From an uncultured Flavobacteriaceae bacterium (lineage in GTDB: Bacteria; Bacteroidota; Bacteroidia; Flavobacteriales; Flavobacteriaceae), in the NCBI GenBank assembly GCA_947494325.1, contig CANLUS010000009.1, forward strand, positions 1 to 60,392: DNA of 60,392 nucleotides, given 5' to 3'. How positions within the stretch are numbered: position 1 is the first letter of the stretch; every line of letters begins with the position of its first letter. The translations under genes and the position numbers were made by a program. Shown here piece after piece: positions 5,208-51,674 of this stretch. The notes under the pieces were generated by a model. It saw only the letters and a list, made by a program, of their open reading frames with translations, had not been told where the DNA came from and did not search any database.

Positions 5208-5208
5208 T

Positions 5209-8130: not shown

Positions 8131-8308
8131 CAATTCCTTGGTGAGTGACCTTTGCCTAAAACAAATAAGCATTGCAATTTTAAGTAGTTCTAACCTATAA
8201 TTTTTAACCTGATAAAAATAGATTGGTAATTCTCCAGTCTAATCAAGTTACCGCATATTCGGTTTAAATTCGTAATTTTAGTCTCAACTAATTCAAATAC
8301 TAAACCTT

Positions 8309-9751: not shown

Positions 9752-9812
9752 TTTTAATCATATTAATTATCTAATTACGAATCTTGTATAATGATAGACT
9801 AATGACCTAATT

Positions 9813-10349
9813 ATGAAACGACTTATGCTTTTAGCAATTTTTCTCTTCATTTCTTGTCAATCATCCAATAATTCGGTTGCCGGATGGCAAAAAGTTTTTC
9901 AAAATGAAGCGGATGGAAGTGTAAAGTTTGGAGATAAATCAAGGCTAATAGATGCGGTAAGACTTGGGTATCCTGTTAGAGTTGGTTGGGGAGGTAATCG
10001 AGTAGAACACGTTGCAGAAGCCGAATTTCTAACCATTTTTCAAGGTGAAGTTTTTGCCCAAATAAAAACTATTGTGGGCCAGGCACCACGAATTGATGGA
10101 GATTCGATAAAAATTAGATTTCGAACAGAAAATCAATGGACCAAAATTGCTGGAACTAACGGGTATTCGACAGCTTTTATGACCGATTATCACAAAGATA
10201 GTGTTGTTGGTGGTGGAACAGATAGATATGCCGCCACTACTTGGTATGTACTCTTTCCAAATCATGACCTAGATACAGAAGCCCGACCATTATGGAGAAA
10301 GGAAGCTCCGAATTGGAAAAAATGGAATAAGGACAATAGCACTCCATAA
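9813..10349 (+). CDS. Lipoprotein of unknown function
   Basis: A 178-residue protein with a short signal ending in a lipobox (LFISC, Cys about 15), so it is probably envelope-anchored. The mature part is rich in Trp, Gly and Asp, with RLGYPVRVGWGGNRVEHVAEA near residues 52-72 and GGGTDRYAATTWYVLFPN near 133-150. It looks like a single beta-rich domain without an obvious catalytic triad or metal site. It precedes a small membrane protein and a DUF4174 protein on the same strand. I do not recognise the family. Confidence 0.72.
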   Translation: MKRLMLLAIFLFISCQSSNNSVAGWQKVFQNEADGSVKFGDKSRLIDAVRLGYPVRVGWGGNRVEHVAEAEFLTIFQGEVFAQIKTIVGQAPRIDGDSIKIRFRTENQWTKIAGTNGYSTAFMTDYHKDSVVGGGTDRYAATTWYVLFPNHDLDTEARPLWRKEAPNWKKWNKDNSTP

Positions 10350-10373
10350 ATTGAATATCCTAAAAACAACGTT

Positions 10374-10541
10374 ATGAATAAGAACAAAGTATTAACCGTT
10401 TCATCTATCGCCATATTTTTATTAGGTATTGTTATGATCTATATTGGCGGTTTTTATGCTCCTAAACCTATGCTTCCTCCTATTATTACTGGTGTTGGAT
10501 TTTTTATCATTGCCTGGGCTCTTAAAGCACTAAGATCATAG
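10374..10541 (+). CDS. Small two-helix membrane protein
   Basis: An uninterrupted ATG-to-TAG frame of 55 codons. The product starts MNKNK, has a first hydrophobic segment (about 6-25), a short GGFYAPKPMLPP loop, a second hydrophobic segment (about 37-50) and a basic tail KALRS. This topology is convincing for a small inner-membrane protein. It lies 24 bases after the lipoprotein gene and 4 bases before the DUF4174 gene, which supports translation as part of one transcript. Function unknown. Confidence 0.7.
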   Translation: MNKNKVLTVSSIAIFLLGIVMIYIGGFYAPKPMLPPIITGVGFFIIAWALKALRS

Positions 10542-10545
10542 AGAC

Positions 10546-10977
10546 ATGTTGTCAAGAAAAAAGGTAATCTTTTATATGATACTCATCTCCTCGATGCATA
10601 GTTTTGGGCAAGAAATAGGAAAGAACCAATGGGAAAATCGTGTACTCATTCTACTAACTAAGGATGCAGAGAACACTGAATACGGGAAACAACTCACTGA
10701 ATTCAATGGTGAGCTTCTTAACTTTAATGAACGGAAATTGGTAGTATATCATGTAACTCCTGCTTCATACAAAGTGGGGTTGAATACAACTACAAAACCT
10801 ATTTCTTCGATACTATACACGAAATATAAAAAAACAAAAAGTGACTTTGAGGTAATTTTAATTGGTTTGGATGGCGGTATCAAATTGCGTCAAGATTCAA
10901 TACTCACGAAACAAAAGTTGTATACACTCATTGATAGTATGCCAATGCGGAAAAATGAACTTAAAAATAACGGCTAA
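10546..10977 (+). CDS. DUF4174 domain secreted protein
   Basis: A 143-residue protein with a signal peptide (hydrophobic 6-20, FGQ cleavage region). The mature part has the thioredoxin-like DUF4174 layout: WENRVLILLTKDAENTEYGK, a central LVVYHVTPASYKV, then EVILIGLDGGIKLRQD. DUF4174 proteins look like degenerate thioredoxins lacking the CxxC, and no CxxC is present here. The gene begins 4 bases after the small membrane protein and is the last of a short plus-strand run facing the minus-strand DUF6122 gene. Confidence 0.75.
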   Translation: MLSRKKVIFYMILISSMHSFGQEIGKNQWENRVLILLTKDAENTEYGKQLTEFNGELLNFNERKLVVYHVTPASYKVGLNTTTKPISSILYTKYKKTKSDFEVILIGLDGGIKLRQDSILTKQKLYTLIDSMPMRKNELKNNG

Positions 10978-11009
10978 TCTAAATCATCTTATTTAATACA
11001 AATTGACAT

Positions 11010-11947
<938 letters not shown>

Positions 11948-20629: not shown

Positions 20630-23479
20630 ATGCCGAAAAATAACAACATCAAATCAATTTTAATTATAGGTTCTGGTCCGATCATTATTGGACAGGCATG
20701 TGAATTTGACTATTCTGGCTCTCAGTCATTACGGTCTTTAAGAGAAGAAGGTATTGAAACCATTCTAATCAATTCAAATCCGGCGACAATTATGACCGAT
20801 CCTACCATGGCTGATCATGTATACTTATTACCATTAACTACCAAATCTATCATCCAAATACTGAAAGAACATCCGCAAATTGACGCAGTATTGCCTACAA
20901 TGGGTGGCCAAACGGCCTTGAACTTATGTATAGAAGCAGATAATAAGGGGATTTGGAAAGATTTTGAAGTACAGCTGATTGGTGTTGATATTGATGCAAT
21001 TAACGTTACAGAAGATAGAGAGCAATTTCGAAATTTAATGGGTAAAATTGGAGTAGCCATGGCACCACAAGCTACGGCAACTTCTTTCTTAAAAGGTAAA
21101 GAAATAGCTCAGGAATTCGGATTTCCACTTGTGATTCGCTCTTCCTATACTTTAGGTGGTGCAGGGGCCTCCATTGTATATGAACCGGAAGATTTTGATG
21201 AGTTATTGCGAAGAGGATTAGAAGCGTCTCCTATTCATGAGGTCATGATAGATAAGGCGATGATGGGCTGGAAAGAATATGAATTAGAACTCTTACGTGA
21301 TAGAAACGATAATGTTGTCATCATTTGTGCTATTGAAAATATGGATCCGATGGGTATTCACACTGGTGATTCTATTACTGTCGCACCAGCCATGACCCTA
21401 AGCGACCAAACATATCAACGAATGCGTGATATGGCCATTCATATGATGCGTTCTATTGGGGATTTCGAAGGTGGTTGTAACGTGCAATTCGCTGTGAGTC
21501 CAGATGAGAAAGAAGATATTATTGCAATAGAAATCAATCCGAGAGTATCGCGCTCTTCTGCATTAGCGAGTAAGGCAACAGGATATCCTATTGCTAAAAT
21601 CGCTACGAAATTGGCCATTGGTTATTCACTAGACGAATTAGATAATCAAATTACCAAAACAACCTCAGCGTTATTCGAACCAACACTCGATTATGTCATC
21701 GTAAAGATACCTCGTTGGAACTTCGATAAATTTGAAGGTTCAGATCGTACTTTAGGGCTACAGATGAAAGCTGTTGGAGAAGTAATGGGTATTGGAAGAT
21801 CTTTTCAAGAAGCTTTACATAAAGCGACACAATCACTTGAAATTAAGCGCAATGGAATTGGTGCAGATGGTAAAGGATACAAAGACTATAATCAAATTAT
21901 TGATAAGCTAAAAAACGCGAGCTGGGACCGTGTTTTTGTGATTTATGATGCCATTCAAATGGGAATTCCTTTGAGTAGAATTCATGAGATTACCAAGATA
22001 GATATGTGGTACTTAAAGCAATATGAAGAGCTGCATGCCATAGAAAATGAAATTTCAAGTTACGATCTCGAAACACTTCCAAAGGAATTATTATTAGAGG
22101 CAAAACAAAAAGGGTATGGTGACCGACAGATAGCGCACATGCTGGATTGTTTAGAAAGTGAAGTTTACAACAAGCGTCAAGAACTTGATATCAATAGAGT
22201 CTATAAATTAGTAGATACTTGTGCAGCGGAGTTTAGTGCTCAAACACCTTACTACTACTCTACTTTTGAAAGTAATAGTATTCGTAATGGTGTTGCTTTC
22301 ACGGAAAATGAATCGGTAGTGACGGATAAAAAGAAAATTGTGGTACTTGGTTCTGGACCCAATAGGATCGGTCAAGGAATAGAATTTGATTATTGCTGTG
22401 TACATGGCGTATTGGCAGCTAAAGAAGCTGGTTATGAAACTATTATGATCAATTGTAACCCGGAAACGGTATCGACAGATTTTGATACTGCCGATAAATT
22501 ATATTTTGAACCTGTTTTTTGGGAACATATTTATGACATCATTCAACATGAGAAACCAGAAGGAGTCATAGTTCAGCTTGGAGGGCAAACCGCCTTAAAA
22601 CTATCTGAGAAACTCTCTAAATATGGGATTAAAATCATTGGAACCTCTTTTGAAGCCTTAGATTTAGCGGAAGATCGAGGAAGATTCTCAACACTTTTAA
22701 AAGAATTGGACATTCCATATCCTCAATTTGGAACAGCAACTACTGCCGATGAAGCCCTAGCAATTGCGGACGAATTGGATTTCCCCATTTTGGTGAGGCC
22801 TTCATATGTATTGGGAGGACAAGGAATGAAGATTGTCATTAATAAAGAAGAGTTAGAAGAACATGTGGTGGATTTACTTCGTAAAATACCAAATAATGTC
22901 CTGTTGTTAGATCATTACCTTGATGGCGCTATTGAGGCCGAAGCCGATTCCATTTGTGATGGTGAAGATGTGCAAATTATCGGTATTATGGAACATATAG
23001 AACCTTGCGGAGTACACTCTGGAGATTCGAATGCGACCTTACCTCCATTCAATTTGGGAGAATTCGTGATGCAGCAAATAAAAGATCATACGGTAAAAAT
23101 TGCCAAGGCCTTAAAAACAGTTGGTTTAATCAATATTCAATTTGCCGTGAAAGATGATGTGGTGTATATCATTGAAGCTAATCCAAGAGCCTCGCGTACC
23201 GTACCATTTATTGCCAAGGCTTATAAACAACCCTATGTGAATTATGCGACAAAAGTCATGTTAGGGGAAATGAAAGTGAAAGACATAAAATATGATCCGA
23301 AGTTAGACGGTTATGCGATTAAGCAGCCAGTATTCTCTTTTAATAAGTTTCCAAATGTAGATAAGCGTCTAGGTCCGGAAATGAAATCTACGGGTGAAAG
23401 TATCTTATTCATAGACAGTTTAAAAGATGATCAGTTTTATGAATTGTACTCACGTCGGAAAATGTATTTGAGTAAATAA
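20630..23479 (+). CDS. carB: Carbamoyl-phosphate synthase large subunit (no C-terminal MGS domain)
   Basis: A 949-residue enzyme with the internal duplication of CarB. The first half has GSGPIIIGQACEFDYSGSQ and INSNPATIMTD; the second, from about residue 560, has GSGPNRIGQGIEFDYCC and INCNPETVSTDFDTADKL. Both ATP-grasp modules are present, with EINPRVSRSSALASKATGYP in the first and EANPRASRTVPFIAKAY in the second. It makes carbamoyl phosphate for arginine and pyrimidines using ammonia from CarA. The protein ends soon after the second synthetase unit (GESILFIDSLKDDQFYELY), so the allosteric MGS-like domain of the roughly 1070-residue enzymes is absent, as I recall for Flavobacteriia. carA is not adjacent. 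Confidence 0.96.
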   Translation: MPKNNNIKSILIIGSGPIIIGQACEFDYSGSQSLRSLREEGIETILINSNPATIMTDPTMADHVYLLPLTTKSIIQILKEHPQIDAVLPTMGGQTALNLCIEADNKGIWKDFEVQLIGVDIDAINVTEDREQFRNLMGKIGVAMAPQATATSFLKGKEIAQEFGFPLVIRSSYTLGGAGASIVYEPEDFDELLRRGLEASPIHEVMIDKAMMGWKEYELELLRDRNDNVVIICAIENMDPMGIHTGDSITVAPAMTLSDQTYQRMRDMAIHMMRSIGDFEGGCNVQFAVSPDEKEDIIAIEINPRVSRSSALASKATGYPIAKIATKLAIGYSLDELDNQITKTTSALFEPTLDYVIVKIPRWNFDKFEGSDRTLGLQMKAVGEVMGIGRSFQEALHKATQSLEIKRNGIGADGKGYKDYNQIIDKLKNASWDRVFVIYDAIQMGIPLSRIHEITKIDMWYLKQYEELHAIENEISSYDLETLPKELLLEAKQKGYGDRQIAHMLDCLESEVYNKRQELDINRVYKLVDTCAAEFSAQTPYYYSTFESNSIRNGVAFTENESVVTDKKKIVVLGSGPNRIGQGIEFDYCCVHGVLAAKEAGYETIMINCNPETVSTDFDTADKLYFEPVFWEHIYDIIQHEKPEGVIVQLGGQTALKLSEKLSKYGIKIIGTSFEALDLAEDRGRFSTLLKELDIPYPQFGTATTADEALAIADELDFPILVRPSYVLGGQGMKIVINKEELEEHVVDLLRKIPNNVLLLDHYLDGAIEAEADSICDGEDVQIIGIMEHIEPCGVHSGDSNATLPPFNLGEFVMQQIKDHTVKIAKALKTVGLINIQFAVKDDVVYIIEANPRASRTVPFIAKAYKQPYVNYATKVMLGEMKVKDIKYDPKLDGYAIKQPVFSFNKFPNVDKRLGPEMKSTGESILFIDSLKDDQFYELYSRRKMYLSK

Positions 23480-23513
23480 GACGTATCAAAATAGCATAGA
23501 AAGCAACCATTTA

Positions 23514-23554
23514 AAGGCAGCTGTATCTTTATGATAGAACTGCCTTAAATTTTT
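23514..23554 (+). terminator. Probable terminator of carB
   Basis: A hairpin with a 7-bp outer stem (AAGGCAG / CTGCCTT) and an inner TATC/GATA pairing, followed by a short T run, 34 bases after carB. It ends 3 bases before the next ATG, so it could also act as an attenuator for the lipoprotein gene. Confidence 0.55.
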
Positions 23555-23557
23555 GAC

Positions 23558-24040
23558 ATGGATACCAAAACCAATTTAAAACACCAAGTCCTTTGTTTTT
23601 TATCTATACTAACCTTCATTTTAGTAAGTTGTGATAATAGTGATGATTATACGATAGAAAATGCAAAAACTCTCGATTTTCAAAGTTTCACCTTACAAGT
23701 TCCTCAAGATTGGACAAGCTTTCCCTTGCAAGGAACCGATACTTATTATGGTGGTTTGACTAATCAAATAGATACTTTATACTTCGATTTTGGCTATCTT
23801 TCATTTGGATCGCTAGATAATATTGAAAAAACTGACGAAACGTTATCATTCCAACGCCTGCAAATTAATGGCGTAGATGCTAAAATAGTCAAAGAGAAAA
23901 GAGCCGAAGAACTTGAAGTTCGGTATTCGGTATTTTTAGATAAAAGAGATAATGACCGGCTAAACTGGATTTTTGGCTATGGTTTGAAAGACGAGCGACT
24001 TGTCACTGCCATCTTTTTGAGCCATCAGTTTACTCCTTAA
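23558..24040 (+). CDS. Lipoprotein of unknown function
   Basis: A 160-residue lipoprotein: signal with the lipobox LVSC (Cys about 26), then CDNSDDYTIENAK. The mature part starts with FQSFTLQVPQDWTSFPLQGTD, resembling proteins whose domain begins with a 'lipoprotein, short beta-rich' pattern around QVPQDW, followed by alternating beta strands. No active-site motif is visible. Its 3' end overlaps the 3' end of the convergent haem protein gene by 11 bases. I do not recognise a named family. Confidence 0.7.
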   Translation: MDTKTNLKHQVLCFLSILTFILVSCDNSDDYTIENAKTLDFQSFTLQVPQDWTSFPLQGTDTYYGGLTNQIDTLYFDFGYLSFGSLDNIEKTDETLSFQRLQINGVDAKIVKEKRAEELEVRYSVFLDKRDNDRLNWIFGYGLKDERLVTAIFLSHQFTP

Positions 24041-24377
24041 AACCTCCCGCTTGCCAATCTTTAACAAGTTGCACTTCATCATCTGTTAGCTTTGGCAAAT
24101 TACCCGGAGGCATCGTACCATTTTCTATACGTGAAATGAGGGCACTATTTTCGATTGCACTTTTTACTTCAGTAGCGGTTACCAAAGGAATGGGTGCTCC
24201 ATTAATAGGCGGATCTTGATGACAAGAGAGACAGTAATCTTGCATGATGATTTTAACGGTTCCGTTAAAGGTTACAGAAGCATCTCCAGGTGTCGGTGTT
24301 GGACCGTCATCCTCCGAAGAACAATTTGTTGCCATTAGGGCAACACAAAAAACGAGGAGAGTTGCTGTTTTTTTCAT
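24030..24377 (-). CDS. Cytochrome c-like lipoprotein
   Basis: A 115-residue protein with a lipobox (MATNC, Cys 19) and a single haem-attachment site CLSCH near residue 49-53 in IMQDYCLSCHQDPP. A methionine in NGTMPPGNLPKLTDDE is a plausible distal haem ligand, as in small class I cytochromes. The C-terminal LTDDEVQLVKDWQAGG is the usual final helix. It is probably anchored in the periplasm or outer membrane and carries electrons. It converges on the lipoprotein gene with an 11-base 3' overlap. Confidence 0.85.
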   Translation of the reverse strand: MKKTATLLVFCVALMATNCSSEDDGPTPTPGDASVTFNGTVKIIMQDYCLSCHQDPPINGAPIPLVTATEVKSAIENSALISRIENGTMPPGNLPKLTDDEVQLVKDWQAGGFKE

Positions 24378-24510
24378 AAAGAGGTATATTTAGATTGCAA
24401 AAAATGATACATTATTTAATAATAACTCTGTAAATTCGTATTTAGTATGAAAATATGTTAGTTTCTAGGAACATACACCACTAAATGAATGCCTATACCC
24501 TCTAACTTCT

Positions 24511-24873
24511 ATGGAACTTATATTTGTATATAATGCCAAATCAGATCGCTTAAACGCTATCCTAGACTTTGCACATAAAATTGTGAGTCCGTCAACATAT
24601 GCCTGCGACTTATGCAAGCTCACCCATGGTAATTTTGGAGAACATGAATCTTGGAAAGCTTTTATGAAAACTTCTGATATTCCACTCACTTTTTTTCATA
24701 TTGATGAATTTGAAACGCACTATTCAGAAGCCTTCACGTATCCAATAGTATTAAAAAAGGAGCACGACAAACTGTCAACATTTTTAGATGCAAAGGCCAT
24801 TGTCCGTATTAATACTACCGAAGACTTAATAACGACTGTTAAATCTATTTTACAACAGGCTAAATATATTTGA
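24511..24873 (+). CDS. Conserved-looking small protein of unknown function
   Basis: A 120-residue soluble protein without a signal peptide. It has ELIFVYNAKSDRLNAILDFAHK at the start and a STYACDLCKLTHGNFGEHESWK segment near residues 28-50, where a CxxC and nearby histidines could bind a metal. The rest (PLTFFHIDEFETHYSE; FPIVL-like strand; FLDAKAIVRINTTEDL) suggests an alpha/beta fold. I recall similar proteins in Flavobacteriia carrying loose automatic labels, but I cannot support any function. It stands alone between the cytochrome and SWIM genes. Confidence 0.75.
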   Translation: MELIFVYNAKSDRLNAILDFAHKIVSPSTYACDLCKLTHGNFGEHESWKAFMKTSDIPLTFFHIDEFETHYSEAFTYPIVLKKEHDKLSTFLDAKAIVRINTTEDLITTVKSILQQAKYI

Positions 24874-25026
24874 CAGTCCTCCATTGATATCGCGTCCAGT
24901 CTAATTTCTTTTCACTTCGCTATGATTCCATAAAGTTAACTACCTTTTTTATGTAACCTTGCTTTTTCCCACTGAATTTAATTCAAAAAATGGTATTTTA
25001 GTCCAACAAACACCTGCAATCCGCCC

Positions 25027-26370
25027 ATGTCAAATACCATCACCTACCAATATGCCGCCGCGTCGGGTATTACTAAACAGCAACAGATCGATGAGCTCTT
25101 ACTTGCCAAATACAATGAAGTCACGCGAAAAGAAGCTCCATGCTTTTTTTGGGGCAAATTGACCAACCCATATATCACTGCACGTTGCCTAATTACGCTT
25201 TCTAATATTGTACAGTCGAGCTTTAACCTTTCACCTTTTCAACTCGCCTTACTCAAAGATCCTATTGTTACGGCCGGTAACGAAAAAATACGTTTCGAAG
25301 GCTTTTCACATTGTGCAGGCGTCTATGCCCGCGTTGATGTATTACCAGGTGGTCATGATGGCGAATTTTTAGAAAATGGTACCACCAACGTCGATTTTAA
25401 TCAGGCCATGATTGGTGCCTTGGGTAGCATTCGTAAAAAAGAAAATGTGATACTCTCTGTAGGTAAAAAAGAAGTTGCCATTCATAAAGACGGTGAAAAA
25501 GTGTTAGAACGTAAAGTGCCGCTCCCAACCAAATGGATCAAAGGCCTCACCACCGTACAACTCTACCTCTCCGATACCGAAGAAGTCTTTCGTATGAATA
25601 GAATTCAGGCGCTACAGTTTATGCGAAGCATCCCGAAAGGAAAACCAAAAACCGACTATTACCTCATTATGCGCGGCAATCGCCCCATTTTATCGCCTGT
25701 AAAACAACAACATGGCGTCTGTATTGGTGGCGTACATCGCTTACGTTTACTCGATCAGCTAATTCCGCTAGCAGACGAATTACGGGTCTTTGCCCATAAA
25801 ACGATGCAATCGACTACCTGGCAACTCTATTTTGGTACCATTCGATTTTCGTTTTCACTTTCGCGCGATACCTGGAGAGGCTTTTCGGGTGAAGGTGCTG
25901 CCTTAGAAGCATTGATTGAAGATGTACCAGAGGCTTTGATTACCCGCTTTGATAATTTTAGTTTTGCGAATCAGGAGTTCAATCCTACCATCTTGGCAGT
26001 AGAACAAGATATCGATTTTAAAAAAATGGAAAATCTCTCTGGGCGACTTTCAGCCATGGGGATGCTGGGTTATGACCTCGACGAGAATCATTTCTTTTAC
26101 CGGCGCTTACCCTTTAAACTCGAACGCATCATGAGTTTGAATCCGCGTATGAAAGGAGCCGAAAAACTCTTAGAAGATGGCAAGGTGCAAATCATTAGTA
26201 AAAATGACAATCGTATCGAAGCCCGTGTTGAAGGCAGTGGTGTACAGCATACCGTACTATTAGAACCCAATCGCACCCGATGCACCTGTACCTGGTTTTC
26301 GAAACATCAAGGCGAACGCGGACTCTGCAAACATGTATTGGCGGTTAAAAAATACAGCAGCGAAGTATGA
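25027..26370 (+). CDS. SWIM zinc-finger protein
   Basis: A 447-residue soluble protein. The only clear motif is a C-terminal SWIM zinc finger, RCTCTWFSKHQGERGLCKH near residues 418-436, with CxC and CxH ligands; SWIM fingers bind DNA or protein. The preceding roughly 400 residues are a family-specific region (DELLLAKYNEVTRKEAPCFFWG, GFSHCAGVYARVDVLPGGH). It opens a three-gene unit: its TGA overlaps the next ATG (ATGA). In other bacteria SWIM proteins of this kind sit with MoxR ATPases and VWA proteins, for example the E. coli yehL-yehQ region, but neither is present here. The region is more GC-rich than neighbours. Confidence 0.88.
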   Translation: MSNTITYQYAAASGITKQQQIDELLLAKYNEVTRKEAPCFFWGKLTNPYITARCLITLSNIVQSSFNLSPFQLALLKDPIVTAGNEKIRFEGFSHCAGVYARVDVLPGGHDGEFLENGTTNVDFNQAMIGALGSIRKKENVILSVGKKEVAIHKDGEKVLERKVPLPTKWIKGLTTVQLYLSDTEEVFRMNRIQALQFMRSIPKGKPKTDYYLIMRGNRPILSPVKQQHGVCIGGVHRLRLLDQLIPLADELRVFAHKTMQSTTWQLYFGTIRFSFSLSRDTWRGFSGEGAALEALIEDVPEALITRFDNFSFANQEFNPTILAVEQDIDFKKMENLSGRLSAMGMLGYDLDENHFFYRRLPFKLERIMSLNPRMKGAEKLLEDGKVQIISKNDNRIEARVEGSGVQHTVLLEPNRTRCTCTWFSKHQGERGLCKHVLAVKKYSSEV

Positions 26371-29306
26371 GAGACCTAGCCCAAGAGTTTGAAGCCATCA
26401 TCAAGAAAAAGAAGGTAGATCCTGCCTTATTGTTTTTTAAAGACTTATCGCATAAAGAGCGAAGAAGTCTTGCCCCAAGTATTCGGAAATTCAATACCTA
26501 TTATTCTGAATATATCGAGCGACAAGGTTCCTGGAGATCTCGAGGTACTAACGAGCAAAATGCCATTATTCGTATCGCTGGATTTTTCTGCTTTACGAGA
26601 GTAGAATATCAGAAATGGGATAGCAATTGGTTGGCGAAAAGTTATATCCTTAGAATTTTTAAGATCTATATTCCCGATTGGTTCGGAGAATTTGTCAATG
26701 CCGAAGTTGCCAAAGATGGATTTCCTCCTTTTCAATTAGATTATGAATGGATGATGGACTTAAAATCGCAAGGTGTGATCGAACCTTCGAATACATTAAT
26801 CGTACGAATACTACCCGAATTTTTATTTGACAGGCATGAAATTAAAGATTCTTACCATTTTAAGTATACCAGAAATGACGGTAAATTACTGAGCTATCCA
26901 GAGACCTTAAAAGACCATATTTGGGCTTTTTTCAAAGAAGAATCGAATATTCATTGGACAGATAATTATGCGAATCAAGGCTCTAAAAAAGAACTGTTAT
27001 CCTGGAAACAGGCCTTTAAAAATCATTCAGACAGTGGTGCCATCGATCGATTTCGATTATTAAAAGCGAGTTTGTCGGCGACCAATATGAATTTTAATAA
27101 ACCTTTGACAAGTTGGTTCATCGATCTTTTTGATTTTTTAGCACCCACCACTGCAGAGATGCTCAAATTACAAGACGGTATGTTGGGTGTGTTTAATTGT
27201 CCGCATTCGAAACCTATCAATGTTATTTTAAAGCACTTCAAAAAATTATGCTTAGAGAAAAGCTTCGCCACCGATGATTTTTTAAGCAATACTCCTATTC
27301 TCTTAACCAATGAAACCAAAACAACGGTCGTGAGCACATTGATGATCTTGGCAAAATTAGCCAAGAAACATCCAAAAAAAACTGCAGCTATTTGCAATGC
27401 TGCCACGCAAGCCTTGCTCTCTAATGATACGGCCATTCAAACGCGTGCAGCCAAGATTATTGCTGCCTATGGCGACCCTACAGATACCGACTTAGCCAAT
27501 GAAATTGAAAGCTATACGGATATGTTGTCGAGCGACGCTGGTGACTTACTACACCCTTTTATGAGAGAAACGGCCATCGAAGGTGCCGAAGAAGAACTGG
27601 TACATATGCCAGCTACTCCGCAGTTAGCTATCTTGACTCCAGAAAATGCAGTACAACTGCCCAAAGACTTAGACGATTTGATGTTTATGGCAAGTCAGGT
27701 TTTTGACCATAATGACGAGTTACACTTCGATATTTTTCCTGCAGCACTCCTACAGTTTAGCGATGCGCTCACAGCCGAAAATGTTGATCGTTTTGAACCA
27801 GCTTTACAACGAGCTTATAAACACGTCATGGGCGATTGGCGTTCGGGCATTGGTATTTTAGACCATATGCTCTGTGTATTTTTTATTGATTTTACCGATA
27901 CGCTAATTAAGCGTTTTCCGAAGGGTGCCGCGCAGTTGAAAAAAATTAGAGATGTTTATCATCAAAAAGAGAAAGATAACATCAAACAGTTTCGAAATCA
28001 CGCACGTAACTTATATCCTTTTCGCAATTGGTTCGGAACGAGCGATGCAAAAATCTACAAACCATTTTTTCATAAACTCTTATTTGTACTCAAAGAATTG
28101 GAAAATGCCAATACCCTACCGCTCTTGTCGACTCCGACACATCATCCGTTTTGGATTGACCCTAAAATCCTCATCGGGCGGATTAAATTATGGCAAGACA
28201 GCGACAGCGAAATCGGACATGCAGACTTGCAATTCGCGTTTTCGAGAACCTATTTAAAAGGTGCCGAAAAACACCTATCGACCGTCACAACAGAACTGAA
28301 AGGAGAGCCACAGCGTTTAGTAGCTTTTCTTTTTGACAAAGAAGCATCTCCGCAACAACCTTTTCAAACCATTGCGCATTGGTGGACCACCAGTATGACT
28401 AAGAATCCTGAACAGGTCTATCCTGAATTCAAAAATTTTGTCTATTCAAATGCGCATCGCGCTATCTACACCGGAAATTATACCTGGCGCATAGGAAGTA
28501 CCGCTTTTTCGAATTCTCGATATGATTATAAGAAAAACAAAATGATCAATTTTACAGATTATCGTAAAATGCTAAAACTTAATTTGAATCCGAAATATGA
28601 AGTTAAAAAATGGTTTAACATCATTTTTAGTATCAAAAAGACACCAAAATTAGGACATCAATCCATGATTTATGGAGACATTCAATTTAGAAATCAGTGG
28701 TATGAAACTAATGAGAATGACGTAAAGCGCTTTTATGGGATGGTCCCTAACAACCCCAATAATTTACTAGCCAAAGTAATTGATAAGACCTTGAAATATC
28801 CCGAGTTTTCTGGAGAGACCACCAAGCGTATGTTTATCAATACAGTAGATCAATTGCTAACCAATAGCACACCCATGACCGAAATGACGCATTTACTAAT
28901 GGCTGGAGGTTTGATATGTTCTGATAAAACGGGGCGTTCGCTGTCGGCAGAATTATGGGTACACGGCGTGACAAACGACATGATCCTTATGCCTTTGTTG
29001 GGTAGCTTTATCGGAAAGCACTTCGAAGTAGAATTTTCGCCCCTCAAACGCTTTACCGATCTGATCATAGAAAGTATGATACGAGTGTCAACAAAACACG
29101 ATGCACAACTGTTAATATTGATAAAACATATCTTACTGCATATGAGCGACAAACCCATTCGAGGGCATGGCAAATTACTAGAGATATATCTCGAATTACT
29201 AAAGAAAAACAAACAACAAGCCCCAACAACTGTGCACAGTAAATTAACCGCTTGGAACACCTCCAAAAGCCTGGCGAAAATCTTAAAAAATATTCATGCT
29301 TTATAA
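26367..29306 (+). CDS. Very large DUF6493-type protein
   Basis: A 979-residue protein with no signal or membrane segment. The N-terminus (DLAQEFEAIIKKKKVDPALLFFKDLSHKERRSLAP) resembles DUF6493 proteins that accompany SWIM proteins in many bacteria. A central part around residues 310-400 has repeated helical hairpins (VSTLMILAKLAKKHPKKTAAIC; AIQTRAAKIIAAYGDP) like HEAT/ARM repeats, a likely protein-binding scaffold. Residues about 420-980 are helical and basic without recognisable catalytic residues. It is coupled to the SWIM gene by an ATGA overlap and to the actin-like gene by a 15-base gap. Family naming is from memory and should be treated as likely, not certain. Confidence 0.8.
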   Translation: MRDLAQEFEAIIKKKKVDPALLFFKDLSHKERRSLAPSIRKFNTYYSEYIERQGSWRSRGTNEQNAIIRIAGFFCFTRVEYQKWDSNWLAKSYILRIFKIYIPDWFGEFVNAEVAKDGFPPFQLDYEWMMDLKSQGVIEPSNTLIVRILPEFLFDRHEIKDSYHFKYTRNDGKLLSYPETLKDHIWAFFKEESNIHWTDNYANQGSKKELLSWKQAFKNHSDSGAIDRFRLLKASLSATNMNFNKPLTSWFIDLFDFLAPTTAEMLKLQDGMLGVFNCPHSKPINVILKHFKKLCLEKSFATDDFLSNTPILLTNETKTTVVSTLMILAKLAKKHPKKTAAICNAATQALLSNDTAIQTRAAKIIAAYGDPTDTDLANEIESYTDMLSSDAGDLLHPFMRETAIEGAEEELVHMPATPQLAILTPENAVQLPKDLDDLMFMASQVFDHNDELHFDIFPAALLQFSDALTAENVDRFEPALQRAYKHVMGDWRSGIGILDHMLCVFFIDFTDTLIKRFPKGAAQLKKIRDVYHQKEKDNIKQFRNHARNLYPFRNWFGTSDAKIYKPFFHKLLFVLKELENANTLPLLSTPTHHPFWIDPKILIGRIKLWQDSDSEIGHADLQFAFSRTYLKGAEKHLSTVTTELKGEPQRLVAFLFDKEASPQQPFQTIAHWWTTSMTKNPEQVYPEFKNFVYSNAHRAIYTGNYTWRIGSTAFSNSRYDYKKNKMINFTDYRKMLKLNLNPKYEVKKWFNIIFSIKKTPKLGHQSMIYGDIQFRNQWYETNENDVKRFYGMVPNNPNNLLAKVIDKTLKYPEFSGETTKRMFINTVDQLLTNSTPMTEMTHLLMAGGLICSDKTGRSLSAELWVHGVTNDMILMPLLGSFIGKHFEVEFSPLKRFTDLIIESMIRVSTKHDAQLLILIKHILLHMSDKPIRGHGKLLEIYLELLKKNKQQAPTTVHSKLTAWNTSKSLAKILKNIHAL

Positions 29307-29321
29307 GACATCCAAACATCT

Positions 29322-30284
29322 ATGAGTTTCTTTAATTTTAGTCATATAGTAGGCATCGATATGGGTTCGTATATGCTTCGTATTTTAAAGGATGACCGCG
29401 TTGTTTTCAATGAACGGGCATCCATGGCCAGAGATCGTACAACAAATAAAATGGTTCTTTTAGGGAATAGTGTCTATGAACACAATCATGAAAGTATTGT
29501 CAAATATGAACCCATCGATTATGTTATTGCAGATTTTGAAGGCGCCGAACAGCTCGTGAATTCAGCGGTAAAAAAAACCATTCCGAATCGCTTTTTCTTG
29601 GCAGCTTCATTGATTTCTTATACGACCGTTCCGACAAGCATCACAGAAGTAGAAAAGAGAGCCTATCGTGATTCTTTAGAACATATGAACTCTAAAGCAA
29701 TCTATTTGATTTACAGTCCGGTGGCTATTGCCATTGGTCAACAATTATTATTTGAAAAGAGAGATATCATCATTGTAGATTTTAGCGCTAGTAAAGTTGA
29801 AATTACTGTGTTTCATGATGCTGAAATTATCGCGAAAAATCATGTTCGTTTTGGAGTCATAAAACTGAAAAAGGTGCTCGAAAATCATATCAAACGCAAC
29901 TATAAGGTAGCCCCTAGTGATGATCATTTGACAAGAATTTTACAGAATTATACTGCAGGCGTGAATGAAAAAACGATCAAAATTCAAAATGTTAGCATCC
30001 CCATGTCTGCACTTCAAATAGCGTTAGAACGATACCTCCTAATTGCGGAAGACATGCTCTTAGAATGTCTAGAAAGTATCGATGTTATAATACGTGCTAA
30101 AGTATTGAGAAACGGTCTCTTTTTTAGCGGAGGCGGCGCCTATTATAAACAAATATGTAAGCGATTAGCCAACTCTTTAGAAACAGGATATAGCATGAGT
30201 AGTAGCCCTGAGCTCGATGTCATCAACGGACTCAAACTCATCATTCGCGATCCTAAAAAATATAGTGCACAGTTGATGCAATGA
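29322..30284 (+). CDS. Divergent MreB-like actin-fold protein
   Basis: A 320-residue protein of the MreB/actin ATPase superfamily. GIDMGSYMLRILKDDRVVFNERA at residues 10-32 corresponds to the phosphate-1 loop and first strands of MreB (usually DLGTANT). EPIDYVIADFEGAEQLV matches MreB's region before its connecting helix. The phosphate-2 loop is altered: IIIVDFSASKVEITVF, where MreB has DIGGGTTE. The adenosine motif GLFFSGGGAYYKQICK is kept near residue 262. No mreC, mreD or pbp2 gene is adjacent; it follows a SWIM protein and a giant DUF6493-type protein in one transcript. I infer a dedicated filament or regulatory ATPase, not the shape-determining MreB. Confidence 0.82.
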   Translation: MSFFNFSHIVGIDMGSYMLRILKDDRVVFNERASMARDRTTNKMVLLGNSVYEHNHESIVKYEPIDYVIADFEGAEQLVNSAVKKTIPNRFFLAASLISYTTVPTSITEVEKRAYRDSLEHMNSKAIYLIYSPVAIAIGQQLLFEKRDIIIVDFSASKVEITVFHDAEIIAKNHVRFGVIKLKKVLENHIKRNYKVAPSDDHLTRILQNYTAGVNEKTIKIQNVSIPMSALQIALERYLLIAEDMLLECLESIDVIIRAKVLRNGLFFSGGGAYYKQICKRLANSLETGYSMSSSPELDVINGLKLIIRDPKKYSAQLMQ

Positions 30285-30453
30285 GTTTGGTTATTGGTTG
30301 TTTTCTATTATTATCTTTCATCATTCTGTCCTAGACAAGCAAAAAAGAGAAAGAAAGGAAATAATTTTTTATTACAATTTTTAGCATCAACTAAAAAATA
30401 AACAACAAAACAAAAGAAAGAACGACATCGTAAATTAAATACCGACTAAAACA

Positions 30454-32247
30454 TTATTTAGCTTCTAACCAGGCCCTCCTTTTCTTCTCAATTTTCTTCT
30501 TTACTTTTTCCAGTAATGAAGTTGAATATGAAGGGTTTGCATCAAAGGTTAATTGTGTTTCTTTTTGTTTGCCAAAACGCCTAAAAACGATGGTGACTGT
30601 TTGATTGGGTTTGAATTGCAACAAAAAGTCTGAGGTCTTCGTTTCTGAAGCGATGGCAATGCCATTAACGGAGATCAATTCATCTCCATTCTCTAAGCCT
30701 GCTTTGTAGGCTGCACCTCCTTTAAACGGATTTGATACGAGTTTAAAATCAGCATTCAAACGAACACCCAAACTAGCCTCGGCTAACTTCGTTTGCTCAA
30801 ACGTCACACCCACACTTTCAAATAGGGTTCTATAATCTGGCATTTGGCTATCAAAAATGTACTTTTTAAAGAAATTATTGGCAAATTCTGCACCAGCGTA
30901 ACTAGCTAATGCATCTTGTAAATCACGAACCGTATAGGGTATTTCTAACTTCCCGTAGGTTTGCCATACTTGTTTCATAAAAGCATCGAGATTTTTGCCG
31001 CCCTCTAAATTCCGTAATGACAAATCCAACGCCAAGCCCAACACCGAACCATAGGTATAATAAGAGATAAAGGTATTTTCTCTATTCACAGGATCTACAG
31101 AGCGCGCAGCATCTACAAATGGAGCCTGATAGCTCATTTCAATCGGATTGAAATACTCACGTGCTGGAGAATTCCAAACATAATTAAGTCCACCAGATAA
31201 GCGTTTGATATAATCTTCTTTTGACAACAATCCAGCTCTGCACAAAATCAAATTTGTATAATAGCTCGTGAATCCTTCTGCAAACCATAACTCCCCAGAC
31301 ATATTGGTTGCCGTATAATCGAAAGGTTCTAATGATTTCGGTCGAATACGTTCTACATTCCACGCATGAAAAAACTCATGAGATACTGTTCCCATATTGC
31401 GTTGCATCCCTCCATTTGCTAAGCTGCGCGTACTAGTTAAAATTGTAGAATTGCGATGTTCCATACCGTCACCAGAGGCATTGGGCATATAACAAGCCAA
31501 AAATGTGTATTCGCCAAAATCGAAAGTTGGTAACGCTCCATACACCGCTTTTTGTTGGAGGACCACTTTTTTAACTCCTTCAAAATATTCGTCCAATTCC
31601 GCATCGGTACCTTGATGATGCAAGACAAATTTAACTATCTGTTCCTTGCTATTATCTACCACCTTAAAACTACGTATGGCATGATTACTAATCTCGGTAG
31701 GGGAATCCATAAAATAATGTAAATTAGGAGCAAAATAAGTGTTCTCTGAAATTTTCTTTAATTGTGTTGCAACTTTCCAACCAAGATCTTTGCGCACATC
31801 AAACCTAACAGTGATAGGGCGTTTATCATATGCTGGGGCATAGATAAAAGTTGCGGGTATATTCAAATGTGCATGTGATTCATCTACTTGTGAATAAGTA
31901 CCTCCTCCTCTATTTGCATACAAAATATATGTCACCTTTACCGTTCCATCATGCCCAGAGACATTCCATTGATAAGGGTTGGGTCTAGTTACTATTAATT
32001 TTTTGCCCGAACCATCAACAGCATTTAAATCATAGACATTCTTCGCAAATTCGTGTAAAGCATATCGGCCCGGTGAGGTTCTGCTCATCCTCAGTTCCAA
32101 AACTTTGTTTTCAAGATGTGTAAACTCGGCTGTTATCTGGGCCTCATGATGTACTGCATTTTCGAAAGATATGGTATACCAATTTTTAGTCTGACCAGTA
32201 ATACTAACAGTGAGAAATAATAATAGTATCGATAAAATAGGTTTCAT
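30454..32247 (-). CDS. M61-family peptidase with PDZ domain
   Basis: A 597-residue secreted peptidase with a signal peptide (cleavage near SITGQ). Residues about 30-270 form the beta-rich M61 N-terminal region. The zinc site is HEFFH in GTVSHEFFHAWNVERIRP (about 288-292), with the downstream Glu in WFAEGFTSYYTNL. A C-terminal PDZ domain (about 485-560) contains GVRLNADFKL, GGAAYKAGLENGDELISVNG. M61 enzymes are glycyl aminopeptidases that act on proteins in the periplasm. It is a single gene with flanking AT-rich gaps and convergent with the actin-like unit. Confidence 0.92.
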   Translation of the reverse strand: MKPILSILLLFLTVSITGQTKNWYTISFENAVHHEAQITAEFTHLENKVLELRMSRTSPGRYALHEFAKNVYDLNAVDGSGKKLIVTRPNPYQWNVSGHDGTVKVTYILYANRGGGTYSQVDESHAHLNIPATFIYAPAYDKRPITVRFDVRKDLGWKVATQLKKISENTYFAPNLHYFMDSPTEISNHAIRSFKVVDNSKEQIVKFVLHHQGTDAELDEYFEGVKKVVLQQKAVYGALPTFDFGEYTFLACYMPNASGDGMEHRNSTILTSTRSLANGGMQRNMGTVSHEFFHAWNVERIRPKSLEPFDYTATNMSGELWFAEGFTSYYTNLILCRAGLLSKEDYIKRLSGGLNYVWNSPAREYFNPIEMSYQAPFVDAARSVDPVNRENTFISYYTYGSVLGLALDLSLRNLEGGKNLDAFMKQVWQTYGKLEIPYTVRDLQDALASYAGAEFANNFFKKYIFDSQMPDYRTLFESVGVTFEQTKLAEASLGVRLNADFKLVSNPFKGGAAYKAGLENGDELISVNGIAIASETKTSDFLLQFKPNQTVTIVFRRFGKQKETQLTFDANPSYSTSLLEKVKKKIEKKRRAWLEAK

Positions 32248-32350
32248 ATAGATTGATTTTCGATAAATTTTTTAAAAAGCATATCCTCTTACGCTTACTA
32301 AGAAACAACAGAAGAAAAACGGACACTAAATCGAATTTAGAACGTCACTT

Positions 32351-33064
32351 TTAAGAAATTAAATTCCCCTCATCATCCCACTTCGCGATATCGCCACGTT
32401 TAGTTTGATCGGTGCATTTAGACAACCACTCAGGGTCATAAGCCATTCCGTGTTTATCTAATACTTCTTGCGGCACTCCGTCCCAAACATTGGGTGTGTT
32501 ACCAACATAACCTAAGGCTTCCAAACCCATTTTTGAGGTATAATATCCCGTCAAAGTTAAATTTCGCATTCGGGTAAAGAACTTCTCTCCTTGTTTGAAT
32601 TCGGAAGGTTCGTCTTTCTTAGTTGGATACGCAATTTTATCACATACAGCTAACTGCTCATCATTGGTACAATTTATAAATTCCTTACCATAGGTTTTAT
32701 TGGTATGATTATCTAACCACATGAGCCCACCTCGCAAAGGTGTTTGATGATTCGGCATATCTTTTACAATGAACTCAATAAAATCCTGTACACCAGCATC
32801 TGTAGCAGATCCATGAGTTTCGTTGGCAGGCAATATAATATCGCATAATACCGCTATGGTCGACAATTCATGGTCATTTAAGAATTCTTCCGCATATATT
32901 TCTTCATCATGAGCCAATTCTTCCGGGGTTCTTCCGTAAAATCCTGCTGCAGTATTGGCAACAACTTCGGGAGCTGCTCCATCTTTAGGTGCACAGCCAT
33001 GTAGTGCTAATCCGGTGGCAACCGAACCTAATAATAAGGATTTAATAGTGTCTCTTCTATTCAT
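32351..33064 (-). CDS. Gluconate 2-dehydrogenase subunit 3-like protein
   Basis: A 237-residue protein with a twin-arginine-type leader (NRRDTIKSLLLGSVATGLALHGC) that also contains a lipobox-like cysteine. The mature protein carries the Gluconate_2-dh3 domain: FLNDHELSTIAVLCDIILPANETHGSATDAGVQDFIEFI. Such subunits are the small partner of GMC-type dehydrogenases exported by Tat. It starts 18 bases after the GMC gene on the same strand, so the two form the enzyme. A membrane cytochrome subunit is not adjacent. Confidence 0.88.
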   Translation of the reverse strand: MNRRDTIKSLLLGSVATGLALHGCAPKDGAAPEVVANTAAGFYGRTPEELAHDEEIYAEEFLNDHELSTIAVLCDIILPANETHGSATDAGVQDFIEFIVKDMPNHQTPLRGGLMWLDNHTNKTYGKEFINCTNDEQLAVCDKIAYPTKKDEPSEFKQGEKFFTRMRNLTLTGYYTSKMGLEALGYVGNTPNVWDGVPQEVLDKHGMAYDPEWLSKCTDQTKRGDIAKWDDEGNLIS

Positions 33065-36119: not shown

Positions 36120-36815
36120 TTAAATGGAAGGAAATGTGATACAATTCAAATAATATATATTGCTTACAGCTACACTTGGTTCTTTTAACTCAAAATCTTT
36201 TGGTAAATATGCCATGGTATCAAATTCAAATGCTTCATCTTCTTCTTCAATATTGATGTCAACAATACTATCGTATAATGATCCATCTGCCGAAAACCCA
36301 ACAGGTAAGTAATCTGAAGTATCAAAGCTAAAAGGTTCATCCTCTTCAATAGTCGCTACTTCGTATAGACTATCAACATTAATCGTTGCATTAAAACCAA
36401 TTGGTAAATAGGTATTGGTATCGAAATCGAATGTTTCATCTTCTTCAATAGTTGCCAATTCATAATCAGCATTGTATGTGATTGATGCATTAAAACCAAC
36501 TGGTAAATAGGCAAATGTGTCAAAATCAAAAGATTCATCTTCTTCTTCATTTGCGATATCAAACATCTCAAACAAACCATCAAAGGCGTTAAAGCTTGAA
36601 GGCAAATACTTCGAAATATCAAAATCAAATGCTTCATCAGCTTCTTCTATTTCAATTTCTTCTATAGTATTATTAAATAATATGCTAGATACAAAACTAG
36701 TTGCTTTGATAAAAGTACTTTTACTAGCTTGGGAGTTGTTAGTTTGGTAATCTGTTGCTTGTGCCGTAGTACTGAATCCGATCAATAAACAAAGGCTGTA
36801 AAATAAGTTTTTCAT
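36120..36815 (-). CDS. Secreted acidic five-repeat protein (FDFDT/YLP-GF repeats)
   Basis: A 231-residue protein with a signal peptide (cleavage near TTAQA). The mature protein consists largely of five copies of a roughly 33-residue repeat whose core reads acidic-x-E-F-D-F-D-x3-Y-L-P-x-x-F. Cores are DEAFDFDISKYLPSSF, DESFDFDTFAYLPVGF, DETFDFDTNTYLPIGF, DEPFSFDTSDYLPVGF and DEAFEFDTMAYLPKDF. Each is preceded by an acidic strand such as TIEE. Two shorter paralogues follow upstream. A promoter resembling that of the sigma operon lies 58-84 bases upstream. No known domain is recognised; repeated acid clusters could bind Ca2+ or partners. Confidence 0.85.
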   Translation of the reverse strand: MKNLFYSLCLLIGFSTTAQATDYQTNNSQASKSTFIKATSFVSSILFNNTIEEIEIEEADEAFDFDISKYLPSSFNAFDGLFEMFDIANEEEDESFDFDTFAYLPVGFNASITYNADYELATIEEDETFDFDTNTYLPIGFNATINVDSLYEVATIEEDEPFSFDTSDYLPVGFSADGSLYDSIVDINIEEEDEAFEFDTMAYLPKDFELKEPSVAVSNIYYLNCITFPSI

Positions 36816-36872
36816 TTTCGGTATGCTTTTTGAATATATTAGTTTATATAAGTTTTTTTAGTCTTTCTTATA

Positions 36873-36899
36873 GAACGCTTTTGACTAGTAATCGTTACA
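36873..36899 (-). promoter_or_regulatory. ECF-type promoter of the five-repeat gene
   Basis: On the minus strand, TGTAAC (36899-36894), 16 bases, then CGTTC (36877-36873). It matches the elements before the two paralogues and the sigma gene. Distance from the -10 to the start codon is about 58 bases. Confidence 0.65.
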
Positions 36900-37011
36900 G
36901 AATTTTTAATTAGTTGTGAATACTTTAACAGTTGTTTATGCCTTTCGTTAAAATTGTGTGAACACATATTTTAATTAAACACCCTACGGTGTGCGAAGGG
37001 TGTGTTAAATT

Positions 37012-37470
37012 TTAGATTTCAGAATTTACGACTATCGAATTTGTTGCGTTAAACTCTTTTGGTAAATACATTTTTGTGTCAAAATCAAAAGCTTCATCTT
37101 CTTCTTCTACCGCGATTTCAACGATTGAATTTAGAATGTTCGAATTCACATTAAAACCTACCGGTAAATAAGAGGTTGTATTGAATTCAAAAGGAGCATC
37201 TTCTTCTTCTAGTACCACTTCATATTCTAATCCATATTTTTCTTCGAAAGATACATAGGCATCAAAACCTATTGGTAAGTATGTTGCTGTATCAAAATCG
37301 AAAGCCTCATCTACTTCTTCTGTAACTATGCTATATTCGATTGTTGGAAGCGTTAACTCTTTTGAAGCAACAGTATCATCAATACTAGTTACTGTATGAG
37401 CTGGTAATTGGGCTGCTGTGGCTGTCATTAAACTGATGACTAACAAACATGGTAATAATAAATTTTTCAT
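37012..37470 (-). CDS. Secreted acidic three-repeat protein
   Basis: A 152-residue secreted protein with a signal peptide (cleavage near TATAAQ) and three copies of the acidic repeat: DEAFDFDTATYLPIGF, DAPFEFNTTSYLPVGF and DEAFDFDTKMYLPKEF. Between the first two is a YVSFEEKYGLEYEV linker also found in the paralogue upstream. About two-thirds of residues match that paralogue, so the pair is a fairly recent duplication. It has its own ECF-type promoter 81 bases before the start, so it is not simply read through from upstream. Confidence 0.85.
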   Translation of the reverse strand: MKNLLLPCLLVISLMTATAAQLPAHTVTSIDDTVASKELTLPTIEYSIVTEEVDEAFDFDTATYLPIGFDAYVSFEEKYGLEYEVVLEEEDAPFEFNTTSYLPVGFNVNSNILNSIVEIAVEEEDEAFDFDTKMYLPKEFNATNSIVVNSEI

Positions 37471-37550
37471 TGTGTTGAGATTTTTTTAGTTGTTTTCTGT
37501 TGTTTTAGTTTTTTTAAAGGTACTATGTTAAACAAAGTACTTTACAATAA

Positions 37551-37576
37551 GACGATGCTTCTTTTTAATTGTTACA
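37551..37576 (-). promoter_or_regulatory. ECF-type promoter of the first three-repeat gene
   Basis: On the minus strand, TGTAAC (37576-37571), 16 bases, then CGTC (37554-37551). The same geometry occurs at 38424-38399, where nearly all 26 positions are conserved. Confidence 0.7.
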
Positions 37577-37771
37577 CTTATTTTAAAATATTTTTTAAAA
37601 AAGCTCTGCATCGCTTGTTATTATTGACATACAAATATTTCTAAAATTTAGAATGAAAAAGAAATGAACCTAACCGAACTGTTAATTTTTAGGTATAAAC
37701 TGTTGTATAATCTCCCTAAAGCAAAAAAACACAAAGAAGATTTGGTCTAATAACAATAACATGTATTCATA

Positions 37772-37801
37772 AAAAAAGAGCAGTTACAACTGCTCTTTTT
37801 T
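37772..37801 (-). terminator. Terminator of the second three-repeat gene
   Basis: On the minus strand, a hairpin with a 13-bp stem (GAGCAGT core paired with ACTGCTC, A/T flanks) and a short loop, ending in a run of T. It lies 54 bases after the stop of the 37855-38319 gene. Confidence 0.8.
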
Positions 37802-37854
37802 AAAACGTATTAAGATATTTAGGTAAATGAGAACAACTGTTCTACAACAATGGT

Positions 37855-38319
37855 TTACTGAATTTCAGTAGAAGCTGTTGTGGTTTTAGTTGCCTTAAAA
37901 CCTTTTGGTAAATACATTTTTGTGTCAAATTCGAAAGCCTCATCCTCTTCTTCGATATTAATCTCTACAATTGAATCGAGCAAGGTCTTGCTTAAACCAA
38001 AACCTATTGGTAAATACTTTTTTGTGTCGAAATCAAAAGGAGCATCTTCTTCTTCGATGATTACTTCATATACCAATCCATATTTTTCTTCAAAAGACAT
38101 GAAAGGATCGAAACCAATTGGTAAATATGCTGCTGTGTCGAAATCGAAAGCTTCATCTTCTTCTTCTTCTGCAACTTCCGTGAATTCGATAGTTGGCATT
38201 TTTAATTCTTTCTTTATGATGGTATCGTTGATACTATTTAAAATACTCGCTGGTAATTGGGCTGCTGTAGCGGTCATTAAGCTTATGACTAACATACATG
38301 GGAATAGAAATTTTTTCAT
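37855..38319 (-). CDS. Secreted acidic three-repeat protein (paralogue)
   Basis: A 154-residue secreted protein, closest to the 152-residue neighbour. The signal peptide ends near TATAAQ. Repeat cores are DEAFDFDTAAYLPIGF, DAPFDFDTKKYLPIGF and DEAFEFDTKMYLPKGF. The run of acids before the first core is longer (EEEEDEAF) than in its paralogue. It has its own ECF-type promoter 80 bases upstream and a hairpin terminator downstream. Function unknown; likely exported by Sec and released to the periplasm or surface. Confidence 0.85.
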   Translation of the reverse strand: MKKFLFPCMLVISLMTATAAQLPASILNSINDTIIKKELKMPTIEFTEVAEEEEDEAFDFDTAAYLPIGFDPFMSFEEKYGLVYEVIIEEEDAPFDFDTKKYLPIGFGLSKTLLDSIVEINIEEEDEAFEFDTKMYLPKGFKATKTTTASTEIQ

Positions 38320-50661: not shown

Positions 50662-50700
50662 GATATGATATTTTAAATTATAGTAAATTAAGAATGATGG

Positions 50701-51096: not shown

Positions 51097-51190
51097 GATA
51101 AAAATTTTATATGGTTATTAATTTTTATGTGATTCTAAAAAGAATCTACTTTAGGGGAAGAAATGATTAATTTGGAATGATTATTTTGAA

Positions 51191-51586: not shown

Positions 51587-51674
51587 GATATAAAATTTTA
51601 AATGGTTATTATTTTTATGCGATTCCATTCTTAGAATCTTTTCTCAGGGAAGAAAGGATGTACGTTTCTATTTT

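Follow-up and report, generated by a model that had tools for sequence, protein, structure and literature searches.

Organization of the locus

The analyzed DNA, from now on referred to as the window, is a stretch of 60,392 nucleotides from an uncultured Flavobacteriaceae bacterium (GCA_947494325.1, contig CANLUS010000009.1). It contains a block, delimited by comparison with two sister genomes, in which three open and intact ORFs follow one another on the same strand:

24874..30453, no strand: accessory block, 5580 bp between a 120-aa ORF and an M61 peptidase gene (comparison with sister genomes G003 and G004)
25027..26370, + strand: SWIM zinc-finger protein gene, 447 aa, open and intact ORF, SWIM finger at residues 408-441
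26367..29306, + strand: DUF6493-DUF7824-DUF7825 protein gene, 979 aa, open and intact ORF
29322..30284, + strand: gene for an actin-like protein, a putative degenerate MreB paralogue (pseudo-MreB), 320 aa, open and intact ORF

The SWIM and DUF6493 genes are joined by an ATGA overlap at 26367-26370, which spans the SWIM stop codon, and 15 bases separate the DUF6493 gene from the third gene. The three genes are thus coupled in the positional sense, in agreement with the initial annotation, which had described the overlap and the gap. Pfam searches assigned a SWIM finger to the first protein (E 7.6e-6), three consecutive domains to the large protein (DUF6493, E 8.3e-90; DUF7824, E 1.8e-65; DUF7825, E 5.2e-62) and MreB_Mbl to the third protein (residues 9-313, E 4.1e-29, 101.9 bits against a cut-off of 27). 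These assignments are far beyond chance.

The two closest sister genomes, whose CarB proteins are 97-98% identical, share the flanking gene order with the window: carB, a 160-aa-type ORF, a cytochrome-like ORF and a 120-aa-type ORF, then the M61 peptidase. In place of the 5580-bp block, G004 has 121 bp and G003 a different 157-aa ORF. Neither genome contains a DUF6493 match anywhere, and the sole match to the third protein in each lies at mreB identity, i.e. is its mreB. Because both sister genomes keep the two flanks and lack all three genes, the latter form one presence/absence block, i.e. an accessory island. In the remaining five genus loci examined, the M61 side is shared and the carB side is absent within the stretch. 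GC content at third codon positions (GC3) is 0.413 for the SWIM gene, 0.389 for the DUF6493 gene and 0.340 for the third gene, compared with 0.262-0.329 for the four flanking genes measured; these values fit a foreign pair and a more host-like third gene, it being understood that conserved protein sequence also shapes GC3.

Two further features of the window lie outside this block. At 36120-38319, three neighboring secreted-looking proteins consist of repeated acidic EEDEAFDFDTxxYLPxGF-like segments, and at 49323-52070 there is a run of small secreted-looking ORFs with near-alike N-termini starting MKK(V/L)(V/I)LTLVFSLVAVT.

The SWIM-DUF6493 pair is the conserved unit

Scanning genome contigs with a six-row SWIM alignment revealed 283 places encoding a relative, of which the best 80 (62-79% identity) were analyzed. 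A DUF6493 relative is present in 79 of these 80 loci by tblastn and, based on ORF order, the SWIM gene directly adjoins a DUF6493 gene in 77, leaving three SWIM genes that have no contiguous DUF6493 partner. The gene orders found, with S for SWIM and D for DUF6493, are SD (37 loci), DDS (24), DS (11), SDD (3), DDDS (1) and DSD (1). Tandemly duplicated DUF6493 genes upstream of SWIM, in the order DDS, are seen in L099, L102, L105 and other Chryseobacterium loci, at about 4780-11350.

The best 80 loci come from Flavobacteriaceae, Chryseobacterium, Bacteroides, Mucilaginibacter, Pedobacter, Pontibacter, Chitinophaga and others. Further, a SWIM gene followed by a DUF6493 gene is found on annotated plasmids of Asticcacaulis, Diaphorobacter and a Streptomyces, so that the pair occurs in Bacteroidota, Pseudomonadota and Actinomycetota. 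A second Streptomyces plasmid record has no annotated DUF6493 adjoining SWIM, and no annotated SWIM adjoins DUF6493 in the stretch displayed of a Hymenobacter plasmid. In the phylum sample, 10 of 380 genomes encode SWIM (E ≤ 1e-60) and 11 of 395 encode DUF7824, the genome of the window being included in both counts, which makes the pair an accessory trait of patchy distribution. Among the 16 other genus genomes, three (G006, G007 and G009) encode a distant pair elsewhere (SWIM 49%, DUF6493 about 23% identity), where tblastn found no actin-like gene alongside.

The closest relative of the pair is L064, with identities of 79% for SWIM and 55% for DUF6493; mobile-element-looking genes (ATPase-like, replication- and RteC-like by eye) lie near it at L064:8226-11407. 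An integrase gene adjoins the pair in the plasmid-borne locus L175, a hint of mobility. No SWIM protein was found in phage records at E ≤ 1e-5, and viral contigs contain no relative of the DUF6493 protein or of the third protein. A search of the open-licence literature found no mention of DUF6493, DUF7824 or DUF7825, an absence that is weak evidence, and neither SWIM nor MreB nor DUF6493 is mentioned in the main text of PMC7159879.

The neighborhoods of these pairs were surveyed for an MreB-like partner by tblastn, with the third protein and the genome's true 343-aa MreB as queries. None of the best 80 SWIM loci, some of which are short or end at a contig edge, yielded an MreB- or actin-like gene, and neither did any of 13 further loci (17-20 kb each) that surround genus and phylum matches. 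A co-directional ORF begins within 60 nt downstream of the pair in 10 of 78 loci, and only two of these ten, L086 and L089, encode mutually related proteins. Comparing five of the ten with Pfam gave a NUDIX regulator, a sub-threshold SUKH-like match, DUF695, a nucleotidyltransferase protein and, for L064, sub-threshold matches only; the unrelated protein encoded downstream in L064 has the look of a membrane protein when inspected by eye. A conserved third gene behind DUF6493 was thus rejected, none being common to the loci compared. The same applies, within the samples, to a conserved three-gene operon, as the third protein has no close relative and its best checked matches are ordinary MreBs. 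The conserved unit is the two-gene pair of SWIM and DUF6493 rather than three genes, and the initial proposal of a conserved three-gene unit does not hold. That proposal was to fall if the three genes were not conserved together in any relative; within the samples they are indeed not, but their joint absence from the two closest sister genomes still marks them as one presence/absence block.

The third gene is a diverged MreB paralogue

The third protein falls below all NCBIfam cut-offs for MreB, scoring 112.7 of 293, 88.4 of 515 and 83.5 of 365.75 bits. As it is so far below them, we class it from its sequence as a diverged member of the MreB family, other than ordinary MreB. It was compared with an alignment of 51 MreBs, namely the genome's own and 50 others that are 66-99% identical to it. 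Of the 176 columns conserved at ≥95% in these MreBs, 119 are altered in the third protein. The phosphate-2 segment, DIGGGTTEI in MreB, reads DFSASKVEI, i.e. GGGTT is replaced by SASKV, and Ser at residue 132 stands in place of the (H/Y)EP-motif Glu. The DIGGGTT and Glu motif strings are each found in 50 of the 51 MreBs. Asp and Gly of the phosphate-1 motif are kept, as is the GGG in the adenosine motif. We take the (H/Y)EP Glu to be the catalytic residue of MreB and assume the roles of the phosphate-1, phosphate-2 and adenosine motifs likewise. Because the phosphate-2 glycines and the catalytic-motif Glu are lost, the third protein is probably a pseudo-ATPase.

Elements which presumably bind the membrane in MreB, the N-terminus and a hydrophobic loop, are retained: the third protein starts with MSFFNF (MGFFDF in the genome's own MreB) and has RFFL where the latter has RFLF. 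Identity to this MreB amounts to 63 of 150 positions in residues 1-150 and 34 of 193 beyond.

The best other match to the third protein is 31% identical in 296 order genomes, 33% in 397 family genomes and 31% in 380 phylum genomes, while in 17 genus genomes it is the mreB of each that matches, with 40-42% identity over residues 1-174; the order, family, genus and phylum samples overlap and include the genome of the window itself. Among the genomes sampled, the third gene was found only in its own genome. The three best phylum matches (L217-L219) share 57-69% identity with the genome's own MreB; two of them, L217 and L218, do not carry the exact motif strings. In plasmid and phage records, the MreB-like matches to the third protein are all below 30% identity among the matches listed.

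A signature, HMN(A/S)K, is shared by the third protein (HMNSK), the 15 genus MreBs compared and L145 and is absent from the other 35 MreBs of the alignment, a biased set in that the MreBs compared are mostly best matches to the query. Together with the identity ranking, this signature suggests that the third gene descends from the mreB of the genus clade. Tree placement of the third gene was set aside, its branch being saturated with 10 changes per column. The third protein also matches the PADLOC model Dsr2 weakly (E 0.00064, 15.8 bits), with its residues 116-158 aligned to a 1222-position profile, and we took this as chance.

The genome has its own ordinary mreB at C3, where the next two ORFs are mreC/mreD-like by position. 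No mreC lies beside the third gene, whose neighbors are DUF6493 and the M61 peptidase. An ordinary mreB of rod shape was thus rejected as the identity of the third gene, since the genome has one at C3 and the ATP-site motifs are lost; the earlier view that the actin-like gene is distinct from ordinary mreB stands. The third protein resembles the MreB of rod-shape mreBCD systems in its full-length homology, its MSFFNF N-terminus and its hydrophobic loop but differs in having neither the phosphate-2 motif nor the catalytic-motif Glu, in the absence of an adjoining mreC and in an identity of at most 33% over its length.

MreB genes in odd contexts were also encountered elsewhere. L179:6983-8008, on a plasmid of Spirosoma rhododendri, is an orphan MreB with 61% identity to that of the window genome and with no mreC or mreD listed alongside. 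L184:3338-4366 and L185:3376-4404, from two genomes of the same family, are MreB copies with an intact GGGTT whose neighbors look unlike mreC by eye, and G126 has a usual mreB copy (L183) in addition to the odd-context one.

Predicted folds of the pair

The AlphaFold2 (AF2) model of the SWIM protein was built from 26 close sequences; the best of five models has a mean pLDDT of 77.5 and a pTM of 0.77, while the mean pLDDT of the five ranges from 55.5 to 77.5 and residues 1-35 lie below 50. Foldseek comparison of this model with the PDB yielded 471 matches at E ≤ 0.001 (best 1.6e-9, probability 1.00), and the 50 listed are all PCNA or DnaN entries. TM-scores against clamps reach 0.71 by target length and at most 0.41 by query length, with rmsd values mostly of 5-7 Å for PCNA (some near 11 Å) and of about 20-25 Å for DnaN. 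In the BFVD viral library there are 77 matches at E ≤ 0.001, and the named ones listed are mostly PCNA or DnaN. In our reading of the model, residues about 38-280 follow an order of elements resembling two processivity domains. Of the four candidate inner helices, three carry conserved basic residues (R53, K169, K172, R238 and R240, in ≥80% of sequences) and the fourth has none.

Sequence profiles do not mirror this likeness. An hhalign comparison of 35 SWIM proteins with 28 DnaN proteins (28 of 31 rows, three having been dropped for want of an ORF match) gave a probability of 0.1%, no better than unrelated control pairs, and a search of PDB sequences with the SWIM profile gave no match at E ≤ 10. 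The main body of the SWIM protein is therefore predicted to adopt a sliding-clamp-like (PCNA/DnaN) processivity fold as a structure-level match only. Unlike DNA sliding clamps, the protein shows no sequence-profile kinship to DnaN and PCNA, carries an extra C-terminal SWIM finger and is separate from the genome's own dnaN. The terms 'SWIM zinc finger' and 'sliding clamp' were not found together in the open-licence literature, which is weak evidence.

The AF2 model of the DUF6493 protein, based on 46 sequences, is nearly all helix and has a mean pLDDT of 89.0. Its eight Foldseek matches to HEAT/ARM proteins at E ≤ 0.001 include U2 snRNP/SF3b, karyopherin-β2, CAND1 and Pds5. As judged from this model, the DUF6493/7824/7825 protein is an α-helical HEAT/ARM-like solenoid, which names a fold class and no specific relative because TM-scores are only about 0.1-0.2. 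The zinc-finger protein and helical scaffold of the initial annotation are both recovered here.

Relationship to retrons and MoxR systems

The SWIM protein of the window matches the PADLOC model SWIM_XIII (PDLC02972), which we take to describe the SWIM protein found in type XIII retrons, with an E-value of 4.6e-60. All five SWIM proteins scanned, i.e. that of the window and the plasmid-borne L174-L177, match this model (E 4.6e-60 to 5.6e-30). Based on this match, shared by four plasmid-borne relatives, a conflict role is our leading guess for the SWIM-DUF6493 pair. SWIM and ARM-repeat proteins accompany type XIII retrons, and the pair resembles these systems in belonging to the same SWIM family by profile and in having a helical-repeat partner gene beside SWIM, predicted here to be a HEAT/ARM-like solenoid. 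The pair could thus represent the effector part of a system akin to type XIII retrons, working here without a reverse transcriptase and being either orphaned or RT-independent. However, the genome (99.39% complete) contains no RVT_1 reverse transcriptase, in a search whose control was positive in 3 of 14 genomes, and for this reason we keep the pair apart from retrons. Further, there is no Rfam match in 23400-32400, although Rfam lacks models for many retron RNAs. A scan for the [YF]ADD motif in the ORFs of the 80 neighborhoods gave five, none convincing as a reverse transcriptase by eye, and the six DUF6493 proteins searched against PADLOC matched no partner model, with one stray GajB hit (E 0.0056) as the only match. 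On balance, we consider such a retron-like effector unlikely.

A second comparison concerns MoxR-vWA-β-propeller ternary systems (bpMoxR and bpX0-bpX4 in Pfam). The initial annotation had held that SWIM proteins of this kind occur with MoxR ATPases and that an MreB-like protein here takes the place of the ATPase, giving a three-part machine. The first statement is true of one locus: in L031:482-11655, of Flavobacteriaceae type like the window, DUF6493-like and SWIM genes run on into bpX4, bpMoxR, bpX2, bpX0 and bpX3 in a co-directional array, with the pair directly upstream of the ternary genes. bpMoxR, the only MoxR type covered by this count, is nevertheless found in just 2 of 98 loci, the second being L024, where it lies on the opposite strand about 10 kb from the pair. 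The window itself contains no bpMoxR or bpX homologue (tblastn, E ≤ 1e-3). Gene order and spacing, together with L031, would accord with an actin-fold ATPase replacing the MoxR ATPase of SWIM-MoxR-vWA systems, but the third protein has lost its ATP-site motifs and is probably no ATPase, bpMoxR is rare and the three-gene set was not found elsewhere in the samples. The replacement idea is therefore not upheld, and we regard it as highly improbable. Because L031 carries the pair within a MoxR-vWA-β-propeller array, the pair may be plugged into different regulators.

Proposed role of the island

A further alternative is that the pseudo-MreB is a passenger, i.e. a local mreB duplicate which landed behind the pair and plays no part in its function. 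The lack of an MreB-like gene in the 80 and 13 SWIM or DUF6493 loci argues for this, as does the variability of the third-gene slot, in which a closely following co-directional ORF is infrequent and the proteins found are, with two exceptions, unrelated. The GC3 of the third gene is nearer to that of the flanks than to that of the SWIM gene, and the HMNSK signature suggests an origin from the mreB lineage of the genus. Against it stand the 15-base spacing on the same strand and the joint absence of all three genes from the two closest sister genomes. Further, the 320-aa frame is full-length and free of stops despite an identity to MreB of about 30%, and a dead copy would hardly keep such a frame. 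We see a passenger as a possible but somewhat doubtful explanation.

The reading we prefer, if tentatively and at slightly less than even odds, is that the island comprises a clamp-like SWIM protein and a solenoid as one module, probably of the conflict type, to which a pseudo-MreB was added in this lineage. The clamp-like body and the SWIM finger would engage nucleic acid, the DUF6493 solenoid would hold or position the SWIM protein, and the pair would act as a sensor or effector in conflicts involving phages or mobile DNA. A duplicated mreB would, in this lineage, have settled directly behind the pair and then decayed at its ATP site. If it works at all, the pseudo-MreB would be a non-hydrolyzing adaptor or decoy, either tying the module to the MreB/membrane system or baiting an attacker of MreB. 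It may be a plug-in, serving as tether or decoy, or a passenger. A bolder version would see SWIM-DUF6493 as a bacteria-wide conflict system, in which a dedicated sliding-clamp-like protein encircles or grips invader nucleic acid under the control of a HEAT scaffold and into which, in this lineage, a catalytically dead MreB is integrated as a decoy or membrane tether that senses attackers of the cytoskeleton; in this full form we consider it quite unlikely.

If the predicted clamp fold is true, a widespread and so far unexplained SWIM family, encountered at 283 places in one scan and already represented by one model in the defense database PADLOC, gains a concrete activity, the clamping of nucleic acid. 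A pseudo-MreB within an accessory island would, in turn, exemplify, for bacteria, the retention of a decayed core protein next to a module of the conflict type.
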